From: an uncultured Eubacterium sp.
Lineage (GTDB): Bacteria > Bacillota > Clostridia > Lachnospirales > Lachnospiraceae
Direction of reading: 5' to 3'
Assembly: GCA_947089855.1 (NCBI GenBank)
Contig: CAMUML010000011.1
Coordinates: forward strand, 21,041-85,040
Length of the DNA stretch: 64,000 nt
Shown here: positions 1,001-55,295 of the stretch, one piece after another
Numbering within the stretch: position 1 is the stretch's first letter
How the letters are laid out: every line of letters begins with the position of its first letter
Translations under genes and position numbers: made by a program
The notes under the pieces: generated by a model
Told to the model about the DNA's origin: nothing
Database searches by the model: none
What the model saw: only the letters and a program-made list of their open reading frames with translations

Positions 1001-1030
1001 AAATATGCCACGGTATTTATTATTTTTAGG
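976..1030. terminator. bidirectional intrinsic terminator between convergent genes
   Basis: ATACCGTGG (976-984) pairs with CCACGGTAT (1008-1016), and the stem continues through A/T pairs around ATATTTT and AAAATAT. A T-rich run (TATTATTTTT) follows on the plus strand. The hairpin overlaps the methyltransferase stop codon and lies just before the end of the minus-strand debranching enzyme gene, so it can serve both. Confidence 0.65.
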
Positions 1031-3149
1031 AAGTTTGTGGTTCCGTTTTTGTTTCTGTATGGTTATGCACGCCAACCAGTACCTGCACGCTCCTTGGCTG
1101 CAGGGAAACGGCATGGTTTTGCACTGGCCTTGGAACCGCCAGGATACTGTCTGTTTCCCAGGTGTCTACAACAACCGCCCAGTGCATATCTTGCGGAAGG
1201 CTTGGCAGATGCTGTATCACACGTTCCCAATAGGTATTGATTGATAAAAATACAATATCGTCTTCACCAGTTTCCCCGTCTGTTCCAGCATACATTACGC
1301 CGATTACATGGGAATCCCATTGGTAATGTGCATTCCAGGCTTCCGATTCGTGCAGGCTGACCGGAGGGAACCCAATGGAACAAGCAGGCATATCTTTGCG
1401 GATCACCGCATGTTTTTTCCGGAAATGGATCATAAAACTGAAAAAGGTAAATAGATCCCTGTTTTTTTCCGGCAATGACCAGTCCAGCCATGAAATCATA
1501 TTATCCTGGCAATACGTGTTGTTGTTTCCATTCTGGCTGTTCCCGAATTCGTCCCCAGCCAAAAACATCGGGGTTCCACGGCTGCAGAGCAGTACTACGC
1601 AGGCATTTTTCACCATCCGTTTGCGGAGGGCAAGAATATCGGGATCCATTGTCTTGCCTTCTACGCCACAGTTCCAGCTGTAATTATTATTGCTTCCGTC
1701 TGTATTGTCCCATCCGTTTGCTTCATTGTGCTTTTCATTATATGCGTACAGGTCATGCAGCGTAAACCCATCGTGGCAGGTAATGAAATTAATGGAAGCA
1801 TTGTGGCCACGTGTTTGCGGGTCATACATATCCGTAGACCCAGTGATGCGCAGCGCCGCATTGGAAGCCGTATCCGTATCCCCTTTCAGGAAACTGCGTA
1901 TATCATCGCGGTAACGCCCGTTCCATTCTGCGAAACGGTTCCAGGAAGGGAAACTTCCGACCTGGTACAGCCCACCCGCATCCCAAGCTTCGGCAATCAG
2001 CTTGGTACTGCCCAAAATTGGGTCAAAAGCAAGGCTTTGCAGTAACGGCGGTTTGCTCATAGGAGAACCGTCTTCATTGCGTCCAAGGATAGAAGCAAGG
2101 TCGAACCGGAAGCCGTCCACACGGTAAGTAGTCACCCAATACCGCAGGCAATCCAAGATCATGCGTTGGACGATCGGGTGGTTGCAGTTGAGCGTATTGC
2201 CACACCCGCTGTAATTATAGTATTCCCCATTTGGGGTCAGCATATAATAAATGTTGTTGTCAAACCCTTTGAAAGAAAAGAAATTGCCTTGCTCATTCCC
2301 TTCTGCCGTATGGTTGAATACCACATCTAAAATAATCTCAATACCGTTTTCATGCAGGCTTTTCACAAGCTGTTTTAGTTCGGTGCCTTCGCGGTTGTAT
2401 TCTACACCGCCGCAGTAGCTTGTGTTCGGTGCAAAAAAGCTAACCGAATTATACCCCCAGTAGTCAATCAGTTCCCGCCCGTTGTAAGTCCGCTGGGAAC
2501 CAGTTTCGTCAAATTCAAAAATCGGCATCAGCTCTACGGCATTGATACCAAGTTTTTTCAAATAAGGGATTTTCTCCATCAGTGCGGCAAACGTCCCAGG
2601 TTTTGCGCGCAGGGAACTGTCAGCCATAGAAAACCCGCGTACATGCAGTTCATAAATAATCAGGTCTTCCATTGGGATATGCGGATAAACCAACGTGCCC
2701 CAGTCAAAGTCGTCTTTTACAACGCGCCCTTTATAAAAATGGCTTTTTCCTGTTTTAATGCCCCATACACTTTGGCCGGTGACTGCTTTTGCATAAGGAT
2801 CTAGCAGATATTTGGATGCGTCAAAAATCAGGCCGTTTTCCGGTTCATATGGCCCGTCAACGCGGTAGGCGTACTCAAATTCTTCAATGTCGAGCTTAAA
2901 TACGATCATAGAATAGACATTTCCGATACGGTAATTATCTGGAAATTTTAATATTGCATAAGGGACGTCTTCGCGCCGGTGGAACAGCACAAGCTCACAG
3001 GAAGTGGCATTGTTGGAATGCACGGTAAAGTTTACGCCGCCAGGGATGGCCGTCGCACCATTGATGTCATAAAATCCGGGCCTTACATCGTAGCCTGCGA
3101 TATGGTCGAAAGGAACCAGATGAAATTTGTTCATTGGAATTGGATTCAT
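1026..3149 (-). CDS. glgX: glycogen debranching enzyme / isoamylase-type GH13
   Basis: This 707-residue protein is a GH13 alpha-1,6-glucan hydrolase of the GlgX/isoamylase group, expected to trim branches of glycogen or imported alpha-glucans in the cytoplasm. A CBM48-like domain occupies about residues 25-125. The catalytic barrel carries YWGYNSVSFFAP, DVVFNHTAEG, the nucleophile region VDGFRFDLAS (Asp near 350), the acid/base region LIAEAWDAGG (Glu near 387) and the transition-state Asp in TCHDGFTLHD (near 460). Length is normal for GlgX. The ATG at 3149 follows GAGGT at suitable spacing. It is a single gene transcribed toward the methyltransferase and is not linked here to other glycogen genes. 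No signal peptide is visible. Discrimination between GlgX and true isoamylase would need phylogeny. Confidence 0.93.
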   Translation of the reverse strand: MNPIPMNKFHLVPFDHIAGYDVRPGFYDINGATAIPGGVNFTVHSNNATSCELVLFHRREDVPYAILKFPDNYRIGNVYSMIVFKLDIEEFEYAYRVDGPYEPENGLIFDASKYLLDPYAKAVTGQSVWGIKTGKSHFYKGRVVKDDFDWGTLVYPHIPMEDLIIYELHVRGFSMADSSLRAKPGTFAALMEKIPYLKKLGINAVELMPIFEFDETGSQRTYNGRELIDYWGYNSVSFFAPNTSYCGGVEYNREGTELKQLVKSLHENGIEIILDVVFNHTAEGNEQGNFFSFKGFDNNIYYMLTPNGEYYNYSGCGNTLNCNHPIVQRMILDCLRYWVTTYRVDGFRFDLASILGRNEDGSPMSKPPLLQSLAFDPILGSTKLIAEAWDAGGLYQVGSFPSWNRFAEWNGRYRDDIRSFLKGDTDTASNAALRITGSTDMYDPQTRGHNASINFITCHDGFTLHDLYAYNEKHNEANGWDNTDGSNNNYSWNCGVEGKTMDPDILALRKRMVKNACVVLLCSRGTPMFLAGDEFGNSQNGNNNTYCQDNMISWLDWSLPEKNRDLFTFFSFMIHFRKKHAVIRKDMPACSIGFPPVSLHESEAWNAHYQWDSHVIGVMYAGTDGETGEDDIVFLSINTYWERVIQHLPSLPQDMHWAVVVDTWETDSILAVPRPVQNHAVSLQPRSVQVLVGVHNHTETKTEPQTS

Positions 3150-3286
3150 GGAAATACCTCACTTTAATTGGAATATATTCGTTCAGTGCGCCGTATGTAT
3201 ATAGCCATTATAATGCAGGGAACTTGCTTTGTAAAGGAGAAGGATAAATATAAAAGTACCTGTGGTGCTGGCGGAAATGCTGAAAA

Positions 3287-3484
3287 ATAATTACAGGCTT
3301 CACGCACAGGCGCAAGAGCATCAGTATATACAAAATTGATGAGAATGAAGCAAAGACAAAGGAACATGATATTTTGTGTGCAGTAAAATGTTTTCGTGAT
3401 CTTGGAGCCGATATTTCGAAAATAGAAGAACTGCTGGTAAAAAATTACAGCTTATCTTATGAGGAGGCTGAAAAGTATCTATAA
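3287..3484 (+). pseudogene. short decayed gene fragment
   Basis: A frame open from 3287 to a TAA at 3484 encodes a charged helical tail including CAVKCFRDLGADISKIEEL and ending SYEEAEKYL, which looks like the C-terminus of a real protein. There is no start codon or ribosome binding site, and the bases just upstream (3250-3330) look coding only in a different frame, so the gene appears frameshifted and truncated. The family was not recognised. It ends exactly where the structured thi leader begins, so its last bases may also hold the thi promoter. Confidence 0.35.
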
Positions 3485-3485
3485 A
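3457..3485 (+). promoter_or_regulatory. candidate promoter of the thi leader
   Basis: TTATGA (3457-3462), a 17 base spacer and TATAAA (3480-3485) lie just before the first stem of the leader. The -10 matches consensus at 5 of 6 positions but the -35 at only 3 of 6, so the call is weak and rests mainly on position. Confidence 0.3.
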
Positions 3486-3486
3486 A

Positions 3487-3617
3487 CTCTGTAGACATAG
3501 AGCCGGCCTTTAGAGGTCGGCTTACTGTTACCCTACCCCACATTTTCAACTCTAACAATCGCGAAATAGGCTTGACAACCAGCCCGCGGCAGGGTAATAT
3601 CTTACATAGAATGCAGG
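3487..3617 (+). ncRNA. structured 5' leader RNA upstream of thiS (candidate riboswitch aptamer)
   Basis: Several stems can be drawn on the plus strand: CTCTGT/ATAGAG (3487-3502), AGCCGGCC/GGTCGGCT (3501-3522), GTTACCCT (3527-3534) with AGGGTAAT (3591-3598), and inside that CGCG (3560-3563) with CGCG (3585-3588) stacked next to GGCT (3569-3572)/AGCC (3581-3584). The first three use at least one G-U wobble that would become an A-C mismatch on the opposite strand, which points to a plus-strand RNA. The TPP riboswitch landmarks (CUGAGA and the CUGGNUAAUNCCAGCG block) are absent. A terminator hairpin follows directly. From position I infer a regulator of the thi operon; the ligand is unknown. It may match a published thiS-associated RNA motif, which I could not check. 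Confidence 0.5.
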
Positions 3618-3668
3618 GCCGCATGAAGGGGTACACCACCGTGGGTGTATTCTTTTGTGCGGCTTTTT
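3618..3668 (+). terminator. very strong terminator hairpin in the thi leader (putative attenuator)
   Basis: The arm at 3618-3637 pairs with the arm at 3644-3663 over 20 consecutive positions, including five G-U pairs, around the loop ACCGTG, and is followed by TTTTT (3664-3668). Read on the minus strand the five wobbles become mismatches, so the element is directional. It stands 80 bases before the thiS start, where premature termination would shut off the operon. Confidence 0.75.
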
Positions 3669-3748
3669 GGTCGGCAAAATACGTTGTCCTTTGTTTTTTG
3701 CAAGGCTAACTGCAGTAGATATTAAAAATTCTTCAGGAGGTGTCAGCG

Positions 3749-3943
3749 ATGGTCCATATAAATGGAAAACAGGAGCAGGTTTCTGGAATGCAGCTGCAGG
3801 ATTACCTTGTGCAGAACGGTTATCCTATGGAGGGGATTGCGGTAGAATGCAATGAAGAAATCTTGCCCAAAAGCCAGTATAGCTCTTATGTATTAAAAGA
3901 TGGCGATATTATAGAGATCGTTAGTTTTGTAGGGGGCGGCTGA
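3749..3943 (+). CDS. thiS: sulfur carrier protein ThiS
   Basis: This is a 64-residue ubiquitin-like protein that carries sulfur as a C-terminal thiocarboxylate for thiazole formation. It starts MVHINGKQE, contains the typical VECNEEILPKSQY and LKDGDIIEIVSFVGGG, and ends with the required Gly-Gly. AGGAGG at 3735-3740 sits 8 bases before the chosen ATG at 3749; a GTG at 3740 overlaps the ribosome binding site and is less likely. It is the first gene of thiS-thiG-thiH-thiE. Family knowledge says ThiS is adenylated by ThiF, which is not encoded nearby, so the activating enzyme must come from elsewhere or be a MoeB-type protein. Expression is probably controlled by the preceding leader and terminator. 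Confidence 0.92.
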   Translation: MVHINGKQEQVSGMQLQDYLVQNGYPMEGIAVECNEEILPKSQYSSYVLKDGDIIEIVSFVGGG

Positions 3944-3991: not shown

Positions 3992-4768
3992 ATGGATGAT
4001 AATAAAGATACTTTTACGTTAGGGGGCAGGGAATTTTCTTCCCGCTTTATTTTAGGCTCTGGAAAATATTCGATGGAACTTATCCGTGCAGCGGTAGAAA
4101 ATGCTGGTGCGCAGATCATTACGCTTGCGGTACGCCGCACGAATACAAAGAAAAATGAAAATATACTGGATTATATCCCGGACCATGTGACGCTTTTGCC
4201 GAATACGTCCGGGGCCAGGGATGCGAAAGAGGCAGTGCGTATTGCGCGGATGTCGCGTGAACTAGGCTGCGGGGATTTTGTAAAGGTCGAGATTATGAAA
4301 GACAGCAAATATCTGCTCCCGGATAATGCCGAAACGGTGCGGGCAACGGAACAGCTTGCTAAGGAGGGGTTTGTCGTGCTGCCTTATATGTATCCGGATT
4401 TGTATGCGGCCAGGGATCTGGTAAACGCCGGTGCTGCTGCTGTGATGCCGCTGGCTTCTCCGATTGGTTCCAACAAAGGGCTTGCGACAAAAGAATTTAT
4501 TCAGATTTTAATTGATGAAATAGATGTGCCGATTATTGTAGATGCCGGCATTGGGCGGCCGTCCCAGGCATGTGAAGCAATGGAAATGGGGGCGGCAGCG
4601 ATTATGGCAAATACCGCAATTGCAACTGCAGGCGATATTCCGGCTATGGCGGGGGCATTTAAACAGGCGATCGAAGCTGGACGCAGTGCCTATTTGGCAG
4701 GGCTTGGCAGGGTATTGGAACGCGGGGCAAGTGCGTCTGACCCATTGACTGGGTTTTTGCGTGATTAA
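3992..4768 (+). CDS. thiG: thiazole synthase ThiG
   Basis: The 258-residue product is ThiG, the TIM-barrel enzyme that combines 1-deoxy-D-xylulose 5-phosphate, dehydroglycine and ThiS thiocarboxylate to form the thiazole phosphate carboxylate. Recognisable segments are [16 protein letters not shown] at the N-terminus, ITLAVRRTN, the phosphate-binding [24 protein letters not shown] and the loop ending [10 protein letters not shown]. The Schiff-base lysine is expected in the FVKVEI segment. Length is normal. It lies 48 bases after thiS. ThiG and ThiH form a complex in characterised bacteria. The spacer to thiH is unusual because it holds a perfect 15 bp inverted repeat. Confidence 0.96.
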
Positions 4769-4834: not shown

Positions 4835-4891
4835 ATAAATAGATGGCGGTTTATGGATGGTAAATGTAAACGAGAGAAAGGGAAAGGGATT

Positions 4892-6145
4892 ATGCCAGAG
4901 AATCAATTTTTTGTAGATTCCGATAAGTTGTCAGAAGAAGCTTTGGAACGCAAGCACCGGCTTGAGAACGACCCGTCTGTAAGGACAGACCCTATGCAGT
5001 ATATGGAGGGGATGGAGCGCATTTCTTCTGATGTTATGGAACAAGTGTTAAGCCAGATGCATGCATATGATTATAATTACTATACAGATGCGGATGTGCG
5101 GCGGGCTTTGATGCATGAAACATGCAGTATAGAGGATTTTAAGGCGCTGCTTTCACCGGCTGCAAAGCCTCATCTGGAAGAAATGGCTGCAAAGGCAAAA
5201 TACGAAACGAGCAGGCATTTTGGAAATACGGTTTATTTATTTACGCCGCTGTATATCGCAAACTATTGTGAAAATTACTGTGTTTATTGTGGGTTTAACT
5301 GTTATAACGATATTGCACGCAAAAAATTGTCAGCAGAAGAAATTGAACACGAAATGAAGGTAATCGCTGATTCCGGGATGGAGGAAATTTTAATACTGAC
5401 CGGGGAAAGCCACAGCATGAGCGATCTAACCTATATTGGCGAAGCCTGCCGTATGGCGGCAGGGTATTTCCGCAATGTTGGCCTGGAGATTTATCCAGTA
5501 AACAGTGAAGATTACCATTACCTGCATACATGCGGCGCAGATTATATTACCGTTTTTCAGGAAACGTATGACCTAGGCAAATACGAAACACTGCATTTAA
5601 AAGGGCATAAACGTGTGTTCCCTTACCGTTTTGAAGCACAGGAACGCGCAATTTTAGGAGGGATGCGCGGGGTTGCATTTTCCGCCCTGCTTGGCCTGTC
5701 AGATTTTCGCAAAGACGCTTTGGCTTCTGCGCTTCATGCCTATTATCTGCAGCGCAAATACCCGCAGGTAGAATATTCCTTATCCTGCCCGCGCCTGCGG
5801 CCGATTGTAAATAATGAAAAAATAGCGCCGCTGGGCGTCAGTGAATCCGATTTATGCCAAATATTATGTGCGTACCGGATATTCCTGCCATATATCGGGA
5901 TCACGGTATCCTCCCGGGAACAGAAAAAGTTCCGGGATGGGATTGTAAAGATTGCGGCAACAAAAGTATCTGCAGGCGTCTCAACCGGAATTGGCGACCA
6001 TGAAAGCAAATATACAGGCATCAAAGAAGAAGGGGCTGGCGACGAGCAGTTTGAAATTTCCGATGCAAGGAGCTTTGGGCAGATGTATGGTGATATGGCA
6101 TCGCAAGGGCTGCAGCCAGTATTAAACGATTATATCTATGTATAG
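4892..6145 (+). CDS. thiH: 2-iminoacetate synthase ThiH (radical SAM)
   Basis: The enzyme cleaves tyrosine with a 5'-deoxyadenosyl radical to give dehydroglycine for ThiG, plus p-cresol. The radical SAM cluster motif is CENYCVYC, with cysteines near residues 126, 130 and 133 of the 417-residue protein. Other ThiH features are ILILTGESHSMSD, the SEDYHYLHTCGADYITVFQETYD stretch read as two segments, and SLSCPRLRP. I chose the ATG at 4892 because a purine tract (AAAGGGAAAGGGA) precedes it; an in-frame ATG at 4853 would add 13 basic residues and has a poor ribosome binding site. The gene overlaps thiE by 8 bases, suggesting coupled translation. Tyrosine-dependent ThiH is typical for anaerobes, in contrast to oxygen-dependent ThiO. 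Confidence 0.95.
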   Translation: MPENQFFVDSDKLSEEALERKHRLENDPSVRTDPMQYMEGMERISSDVMEQVLSQMHAYDYNYYTDADVRRALMHETCSIEDFKALLSPAAKPHLEEMAAKAKYETSRHFGNTVYLFTPLYIANYCENYCVYCGFNCYNDIARKKLSAEEIEHEMKVIADSGMEEILILTGESHSMSDLTYIGEACRMAAGYFRNVGLEIYPVNSEDYHYLHTCGADYITVFQETYDLGKYETLHLKGHKRVFPYRFEAQERAILGGMRGVAFSALLGLSDFRKDALASALHAYYLQRKYPQVEYSLSCPRLRPIVNNEKIAPLGVSESDLCQILCAYRIFLPYIGITVSSREQKKFRDGIVKIAATKVSAGVSTGIGDHESKYTGIKEEGAGDEQFEISDARSFGQMYGDMASQGLQPVLNDYIYV

Positions 6146-6773
6146 CGCAGTTATCAAAAACCAGGAAAAATGGTGGCAGGATTCCATAAAAATCCGCTGT
6201 ATCACAAACCGCCATTTATCGAAACAGGACTATTTTGAACAGATAAAGCAGATTGCACAGGCACAGCCAGAAGCAGTGATCGTAAGAGAAAAGGATTTGC
6301 CAGAGCCAGAATACGAACGGCTTGCGAAAAAAGTGATGCAGATTTGCACCGGTTATCAAGTCCCATGTATCCTGCACACATATACCAGGGCTGCCATACG
6401 TCTGGAGGCTTTTGCCATCCATCTGCCGCTGGTACAGCTTCTGGCACTGCCGGAACGGGAAAAACAGCGTTTTACGGTACTAGGGGCATCTGTACATTCT
6501 ATTAAGGAAGCCAAACAGGCACAGGAAGCTGGTGCAGGTTACCTTACGGCAGGGCATGTTTACCCAACAGATTGCAAAAAAGGGGTGCCTGCGCGGGGGT
6601 TGGATTTTCTGCGGGAAGTTTGCGCCGCAGTAGATATACCGGTGTATGCGCTTGGCGGCATTTGTGCGGGAAATGCGGCGGCGTGTATCCGTGCTGGTGC
6701 GGCCGGTGTGTGTATTATGTCGGAATGTATGCGGACAGATGTGGGCCAGCGTATGCAGGGGTACCGTTTATAG
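6138..6773 (+). CDS. thiE: thiamine phosphate synthase / TenI family protein
   Basis: The 211-residue TIM-barrel protein belongs to the ThiE/TenI family. It shows the family pattern: CITNRHL near the N-terminus, VIVREKDLP, VLGASVHSIKEA, AGHVYPTDCKKGVPARGL and the C-terminal IPVYALGGICAGN. ThiE couples thiazole phosphate with HMP pyrophosphate to thiamine phosphate, whereas TenI aromatises the thiazole product of ThiG. The phosphate-loop Lys-Lys of VYPTDCKKG is present. The pyrophosphate-binding part is divergent (CILHTYTRAAIRLEAFAIHL), so a TenI-like role is a real alternative given its coupling to thiGH. It overlaps thiH by 8 bases. No thiC, thiD or thiM is in the window. Confidence 0.75.
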   Translation: MYSAVIKNQEKWWQDSIKIRCITNRHLSKQDYFEQIKQIAQAQPEAVIVREKDLPEPEYERLAKKVMQICTGYQVPCILHTYTRAAIRLEAFAIHLPLVQLLALPEREKQRFTVLGASVHSIKEAKQAQEAGAGYLTAGHVYPTDCKKGVPARGLDFLREVCAAVDIPVYALGGICAGNAAACIRAGAAGVCIMSECMRTDVGQRMQGYRL

Positions 6774-6823
6774 ATTTATAATGGGTTTCTTATGTTTAAT
6801 ATACAGCATATACAAAAAGATAC

Positions 6824-6990
6824 CTAGTGTAGTGGCTTGCTGGTATTTATGGCAATCGTACTGCCTATTTTGCCATCTGCCGCGTTGGATTTTCTAGTCG
6901 TAGCCACCACTACGCCGTCGAAAATCCGCCTTGCAGAATGACAAAATATTCAGCACGCTTACCATAAATACCAGCGAGCCACTACACTAG
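6824..6990. repeat. 167 bp full-length palindromic element (MITE-like)
   Basis: CTAGTGTAGTGGC (6824-6836) is complementary to GCCACTACACTAG (6978-6990), and complementarity continues inward with scattered mismatches through GCTGGTATTTATGG and GATTTTC/GAAAATC to a tip CGTAG/CTACG near 6910. The entire 167 bases fold into one hairpin. TA dinucleotides lie close to both ends, but a target duplication is not certain. It lies 50 bases after thiE and could terminate or stabilise the thi mRNA. No second copy was seen in the window. Confidence 0.75.
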
Positions 6991-7023
6991 TACACGAATC
7001 TGGTATAGAAGAGGGTGGACAAG

Positions 7024-49811: not shown

Positions 49812-49901
49812 AAGCGGCTGCGCAACCGTGGTTTTTGTGGCTGCGGGGACGCCGGAAGAGGGGGCGGCGGGCGGGCTTGCTGCTCCTGCTCCAGAATGCT
49901 A

Positions 49902-50039
49902 AGAAGCCCTAAGTATTCTGCATTTACGTAATGGTACCGGACGGGCGCGGCACATTGTCCGCCCTGGCTTAACGCCAGCAGCTACAGGCGCCGCTTCGGC
50001 TTCGCCGCCTGTTTTTTAAGCAGAATACTAAGGGCTTCT
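49902..50039. repeat. 138 bp element with 20 bp near-perfect terminal inverted repeats and internal terminator
   Basis: The ends AGAAGCCCTAAGTATTCTGC (49902-49921) and its complement (50020-50039) differ by one base. Inside are a GGGCG/CGCCC hairpin (49944-49964 area) and the terminator at 49984-50017. The whole may be a MITE-like insertion that supplies a terminator for the secreted protein gene. The stretch 50040-50489 holds no confident gene, only the 18 bp repeats and the promoter at 50394. Confidence 0.6.
49984..50017 (+). terminator. intrinsic terminator
   Basis: ACAGGCG (49984-49990) pairs with CGCCTGT (50006-50012), extended by two inner pairs across a mismatch, loop CTTCGGCTT, followed by TTTTTT (50012-50017). 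Confidence 0.8.
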
Positions 50040-50144
50040 AAACATTCTTCCAACGTCGCCGCAACCCAGCCCACCGCCCCCTCTTCCAGCTGGTTTGTGC
50101 AGGCTATCCGCGGATTACAGCCCACGCTATGGCAAAGCAGCAGG

Positions 50145-55106: not shown

Positions 55107-55125
55107 CAGTAACAGAATGAAACAA

Positions 55126-55234
55126 AGTCTTCAGGGCAGGGTGCGATTCCCTACCGGTGGTACAGCCCACGAGCCGCAAGGCATGACCCGGTGCAATTCC
55201 GGGGCCGACAGTATAGTCTGGATGAAAGAAGACA
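55126..55234 (+). ncRNA. FMN riboswitch (RFN element)
   Basis: All RFN landmarks are present: P1 strands GTCTTC and GAAGAC, AGGGCAGGGTG, ATTCCCTACCGG, TGGTACAGCCCACGAGC, TGACCCGGTG, ATTCCGGGGCCGACAG, and TATAGTCTGGATG. FMN binding closes the aptamer. A terminator at 55296-55324 follows, and a competing GGAAAAC/GTTTTCC pairing (55241-55247 with 55281-55287) lies between, so control is probably by transcription termination. Confidence 0.97.
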
Positions 55235-55295
55235 TTTTAAGGAAAACAGGGTTCCTTTCGTTAAGTAGGCCTCTAAAAAAGTTTTCCTTCCATTG

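Follow-up and report, generated by a model that had tools for sequence, protein, structure and literature searches.

The thiS motif was published by Stav et al. 2019 (PMC6429828), and Atilho et al. 2019 (PMC6478431) showed that it is an HMP-PP riboswitch. As described in the text of the latter paper, it is a ligand-ON switch with the aptamer embedded in its own terminator, and HMP-PP-dependent structure change, read-through and reporter expression were shown for members other than the one treated here (PMC6478431). The same text places a G-U run at positions 24-27 and 46-49, an unstructured loop at 35-39 and termination near 66, gives GG-CC as a putative pseudoknot of the class, and reports from in-line probing that a tested member switches on truncation at 52-54 nt (PMC6478431). 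In the tested member, changes at the positions that correspond to G 3630 and C 3639 of the window abolished the response (PMC6478431). The class is described as associated with thiS, thiW and thiE (PMC6478431, PMC6429828), and tandem TPP riboswitches are stated for about 30% (eLife, PMC6478431) or 20% (BMC Microbiology, PMC6429828).

Positions 3605-3670 of the window, by which we mean the whole stretch of 64,000 nucleotides that was analysed, are almost certainly an HMP-PP riboswitch (thiS motif), and an ordinary member of this known class (Table 1). Membership was observed in sequence, covariation, alternative folds, register and gene context; that this copy responds to HMP-PP is an expectation by analogy with the published members. 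The preliminary description had proposed that a ligand-sensing or protein-responsive leader other than a TPP riboswitch controls the thiazole operon, and that it might be a published thiS-linked motif. The first proposal is supported, since the leader fits the HMP-PP riboswitch, and the second agrees with the thiS motif (PMC6429828) that was later described as that riboswitch (PMC6478431). An unannotated leader, missed by an Rfam 15 scan, can thus be assigned to an experimentally characterised riboswitch class.

Table 1. Features of the HMP-PP riboswitch locus, in positions of the window.
Feature	Position	Strand	Basis or remark
Alpha-amylase/CBM48 gene	1026-3149	minus	
Degenerate short reading frame	ends 3484	plus	
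Sigma-70-type promoter, TTGACA-17-TAATAT	3572-3600	plus	10/12 consensus matches; predicted
HMP-PP riboswitch (thiS motif), whole element, 66 nt	3605-3670	plus	covariance model R1
5' element AGAATG	3608-3613	plus	AGAGTG in most relatives
P1 (ON state), AUGC 3611-3614 with GCAU 3621-3624	3611-3624	plus	MFE fold of first 49-55 nt
Terminator stem (OFF state), 20 pairs	3618-3637 / 3644-3663	plus	sequence, terminator scan, folding, covariation in relatives
Conserved core, GGGG 3628-3631 and loop 3638-3643	3628-3643	plus	invariant in 40/40 aligned rows, which were picked with a core pattern
P2, terminator tip	3632-3637 / 3644-3649	plus	
Terminator loop ACCGTG	3638-3643	plus	
Terminator U run (T5)	3664-3668	plus	
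thiS, first gene of controlled operon	3749-3943	plus	TIGR01683, 71.3 bits, cut-off 37.45
thiG	3992-4768	plus	PF05690, 339.7 bits
thiH	4853-6145	plus	TIGR02351, 498.8 bits, cut-off 380
TMP-TENI family gene, TenI-like or ThiE-like	6138-6773	plus	PF02581, 141 bits

The start of thiS is the ATG at 3749, after AGGAGG at 3735-3740, while the list of open reading frames puts it at GTG 3740. The TMP-TENI gene stays below the NCBIfam cut-offs for both TenI (108.3 bits, cut-off 251) and thiE (99.8 bits, cut-off 145.1), with TenI the nearer of the two. Between this gene and a carbon-nitrogen hydrolase gene there is a long imperfect inverted repeat (6815-6995), with a 99% copy on contig C51 and an 86% piece on contig C1 of the same genome, which resembles a small repeat of the mobile or intergenic kind. 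The end of the degenerate reading frame (3357-3484) has a 77% identical stretch on contig C59 of the same genome. A dispersed repeat at the leader itself was considered and is not supported; the only additional match to 3240-3760 in the own genome covers 3357-3484, upstream of the leader.

The hairpin of the preliminary description, 20 bp with five G-U pairs and TTTTT, is present at 3618-3668, with the G-U pairs at 3624-3657, 3625-3656, 3628-3653, 3630-3651 and 3631-3650. The terminator scan calls it a terminator of the plus strand and thiS follows, which confirms the orientation that had been claimed. The RNA of 3605-3670 has a folding energy of -34.4 kcal/mol as compared to a mean of -17.2 (sd 2.8) in shuffles (z -6.2), and none of 200 shuffles folded as well; when 3480-3740 was folded as a whole, z was -5.0, again with 0/200. 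The description had further called the hairpin attenuator-like. The terminator is real, but it holds the aptamer itself and does not lie downstream of one.

The preliminary description had also taken everything from 3487 to 3668 as one leader with several stems, and this we reject, because a promoter lies inside that stretch and the conservation does not extend over it. The stem at 3500-3523 is upstream of the promoter, and among the 29 non-self loci described below conservation is confined to 3604-3671 (query positions 119-186). From the promoter-like sequence, transcription is predicted to start at about 3605-3607. A promoter with at least 9/12 consensus matches was found upstream of 30 of 43 elements, the window included, a level that 7% of shuffles reach, and in 29 of these 30 the gap from promoter to 5' element is 6-7 nt, which places the element close to the start of the RNA, if not right at it. 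No such promoter was seen upstream of the other 13, and a TPP riboswitch precedes two of them (L013, L014).

It is conceivable that the hairpin is a plain intrinsic terminator, without ligand sensing, of an upstream transcript or of a short promoter-proximal RNA. All features of such a terminator are present, and the degenerate reading frame ends upstream of the hairpin. However, the promoter sits between that frame and the hairpin, the loop and the middle of the stem are conserved across genera, a competing hairpin at the 5' end covaries, and thi genes accompany the element in 37 of the 38 genomes that have it, so we find this explanation very unlikely.

The relatives carry much of the evidence for the HMP-PP riboswitch. 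A blastn search with 3486-3740 against 397 genomes of the family (E up to 1) gave matches in 272 genomes, the weak end mostly by chance; the 30 loci that were fetched include that of the window. The 29 non-self loci are 81-92% identical and match only around the hairpin. Downstream on the same strand there is thiS in 27 of them; L026 has thiG without thiS, and the sequence of L018 stops 70 nt downstream of its element. Elements were selected with a typed pattern for the core, and after two duplicates (L033, L045) were dropped, 47 distinct rows remained, the window and 46 relatives. The alignment A1 consists of 40 rows; the window was left out, as were L007, L016, L018, L025 and L040, where the 5' element was not recognised or the linker was long, and L039, which has no upstream sequence. 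The tests on 43 elements (P1 pairing, promoters) include the window and omit L007, L018, L025 and L039.

Common to the rows of A1 are AGA(G)TG, a linker and an outer stem that both vary, and the core AAGGGG-YR-CACCACC-NN-GGG, the invariance of which is partly a construction, because the rows were picked with the core pattern. The core does vary in more distant matches of the covariance model, for example AUGGGG in L148 and L150. In the terminator, 96.6% of the cells of the 40 rows are paired and both sides have changed in 9 of the 20 pairs. The covariation score is 0.382 as compared to 0.216 in shuffles (0/500), and far above that of slid versions. The four pairs of the GGGG run showed no two-sided change in the 40 rows, and the innermost of them is unpaired in 10/40.

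The class is also defined by a hairpin that competes with the terminator. P1 of the window takes up the 5' arm of the terminator; a pairing of AGAGUG with the 3' arm was considered as well and rejected, since P1 falls on the 5' arm when the 3' arm is left out of the fold and also when the RNA is truncated. The pairing of the window's own P1 is worth -5.3 kcal/mol, as compared to -2.1 on average when its 5' segment is paired with the arm of each of the 43 elements. Across the 43 elements, the 5' segment and its own arm gave -6.30 kcal/mol as compared to -3.98 (sd 0.27) for re-dealt partners, and 0 of 10,000 deals did as well, a count that is no strict probability as related sequences are not independent. 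This form of comparison was used because most of P1 shifts register among the elements. The three columns of P1 that can be aligned are 95.7% paired, with two-sided change in two of the three pairs, and for the whole structure of P1 and P2, the real value was reached in four measures by 0-4 of 500 shuffles, and in one other, further pair types, by 65 of 500. The outermost pair of P1 is A-U in the window, while in the relatives it is G-C (24/40) or G-U (11/40). A lack of covarying stems among thiS leaders had been named beforehand as what would refute the proposal, and the proposal passed, as both the terminator and the competing 5' hairpin covary.

Truncation of the window RNA in silico shows the exchange between the two folds. 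At 49-55 nt P1 and P2 make up the MFE fold, and from 56 nt on it is the terminator; a 48-nt RNA folds into a third structure. The probability of P1 is about 0.4 at 49 nt, 0.8-0.98 at 51-54, about 0.5 at 55 and at most 0.01 from 56 on.

A protein could likewise bind a stem-loop that is conserved at the start of an RNA, or the inverted repeat in the DNA, and the thiazole operon would then be under a protein-responsive attenuator or a DNA operator. One-sided changes between G-C and G-U preserve the RNA pairing in many rows, and the alternative RNA fold covaries, both of which speak against this. In the published text on the class, moreover, HMP-PP acts in vitro with purified components (PMC6478431). 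A protein site of either kind is thus highly improbable as the explanation of the element.

The HMP-PP riboswitch of the window was compared with the published class by text description and numbered positions. Common to both are a distance of about 66 nt between start and U run, an aptamer embedded in the terminator, a competing P1, P2 at the tip, a G-U run opposite a U-rich strand, a conserved loop and the site upstream of thiS. With 3605 as +1, GGGG 3628-3631 falls on 24-27, C 3639 on 35, the loop on 35-39 and the end, 3670, on 66. The GGGG pairs with UUCU at 3650-3653, three G-U and one G-C, which fits the published 24-27 / 46-49. As in the class, P1 breaks up the terminator base and leaves P2 intact, the partner strands being compared with the published text only. 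In the window as well as its relatives the element lies upstream of genes that serve to make, transport or use thiazole phosphate, as would be expected from the association of the class with thiS, thiW and thiE.

The differences are small. The window has AGAATG and not AGAGTG as in most relatives, and at published position 48 a C replaces the U. P1 has four pairs in silico, and the switch point at 55/56 nt, also in silico, is 2-3 nt later than the published 52-54 nt, which comes from in-line probing. Directly upstream there is no TPP riboswitch, as in the tested C. sp. Maddingley member (PMC6478431). The two substitutions could be taken as signs of a variant with altered ligand specificity, and we judge that to be exceedingly unlikely. 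U 3624 is the partner of the A of AGAATG, in a pair that is G-C or G-U in most relatives, and G 3629 is the partner of C 3652. At the core positions the window does not differ from the relatives, and the controlled genes are the usual ones.

If the HMP-PP riboswitch of the window works as the published ones do, the RNA would start near 3605, and with the polymerase at the U run its first 50-55 nt would be exposed and could hold both P1, in which the 5' end pairs with the terminator's 5' arm, and P2, the terminator tip. This fold would leave the invariant GGGG free to contact the CC of the invariant loop. Should HMP-PP bind at that point, the terminator could not form, and thiS, thiG, thiH and the next gene would be transcribed; without HMP-PP, the 20-bp terminator would close and transcription would stop. 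The outcome would be that thiazole phosphate is made when its pyrimidine partner, HMP-PP, is waiting.

The preliminary description was right that a TPP riboswitch is missing here; no match at gathering score was found in the window, and an Rfam search of 3300-3900 with E up to 10 gave only four chance-level eukaryotic families and not TPP. The covariance-model search that had been suggested for the leader region gave no matching family at the element. With Rfam 15 this holds at gathering score for the window and 28 related loci (20 + 8), where none of the other families is relevant to the element either, and an annotation made with Rfam 15 is therefore silent on it. The 46 related elements together with the covariance model R1 could seed a family entry. 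Elsewhere in the window, the scan showed a TwoAYGGAY RNA (49888-50053, minus strand, RF01731, 50.4 bits) and an FMN riboswitch (55123-55237, plus strand, RF00050, 114.7 bits).

The genome does have a TPP riboswitch on another contig (C5:109955-110063, minus strand, 60.9 bits, RF00059), the only one found, although further copies may be missing from an assembly that is 89.7% complete. It is followed on the same strand by thiE (TIGR00693, 227 bits, cut-off 145.1), a HAD-family hydrolase gene and thiC, and a thiD-type kinase is found on contig C25 (PF08543, 304.1 bits). Like the element of the window, it controls thiamin genes, but its fold and ligand are different and it is an OFF switch, whereas the HMP-PP class is ON. 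We lean towards the interpretation that the two riboswitches act on separate operons, TPP as OFF switch on thiE-HAD-thiC and HMP-PP as ON switch on thiS-thiG-thiH and the tenI/thiE-like gene. As the thiazole operon of the window carries the HMP-PP switch only, the pyrimidine branch would be under the control of the end product, and the thiazole branch under that of the pyrimidine. If this is true, the published tandem logic gate has been split over two operons. A TPP riboswitch directly before the element was seen at 2 of 20 scanned loci (L013, L014), and this order is the tandem arrangement described in the published text.

To follow the HMP-PP element in more genomes we used R1, which was built from the 40 relatives with the window left out. 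It matches 3605-3670 in full length with 70.3 bits (E 1.7e-15), as compared to 18.2 bits on the minus strand at the same place, and this is the sole match in the own genome among those listed at E up to 1e-4. Of 195 relative genomes, 38 have a match at E up to 1e-4, the own included; the genomes of the blastn and R1 searches overlap, and L028 and L149 are the same element. Among the 13 listed members of the genus, again with the own included, 11 have a match and G399 and G405 have none. The gene downstream in the 38 genomes is thiS in 35, thiG in one (L136) and thiW in one (L147). The match in L154 is probably false; the locus is rich in A and T, scores on either strand (37.1 and 30.4 bits) and has no thi gene among the reading frames listed. 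At the 80 nearest ThiG loci, a strong match (at least 56.7 bits) was found in 19, most of them from the training set, and in 61 there was none, L089 (29.4 bits) and L066 (24.4 bits) being weak and at least L047, L050, L098 and L111 beginning too close to the gene to tell. The switch is thus far from universal on thiG operons.

Some of the elements were found in other arrangements. L151:1971-2072 and L153:2014-2119, which come from a single genus in a different family of the same order, have 37 nt in the apical loop where the model has 2, and thiS downstream; it is possible that they are a loop-extended form of the switch. In L152, a Clostridiales-1 RNA (2047-2211, RF01699, 102.2 bits) starts 5 nt past the HMP-PP-like element (1975-2041) and precedes thiS (2318). 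At L147:505-3889, on the minus strand, a TPP riboswitch, thiE and thiD are followed, still within the cluster, by an HMP-PP-like element and then by thiW and thiM, which codes for hydroxyethylthiazole kinase, and judging from this order, one thiamin gene cluster appears to be divided by two switches.
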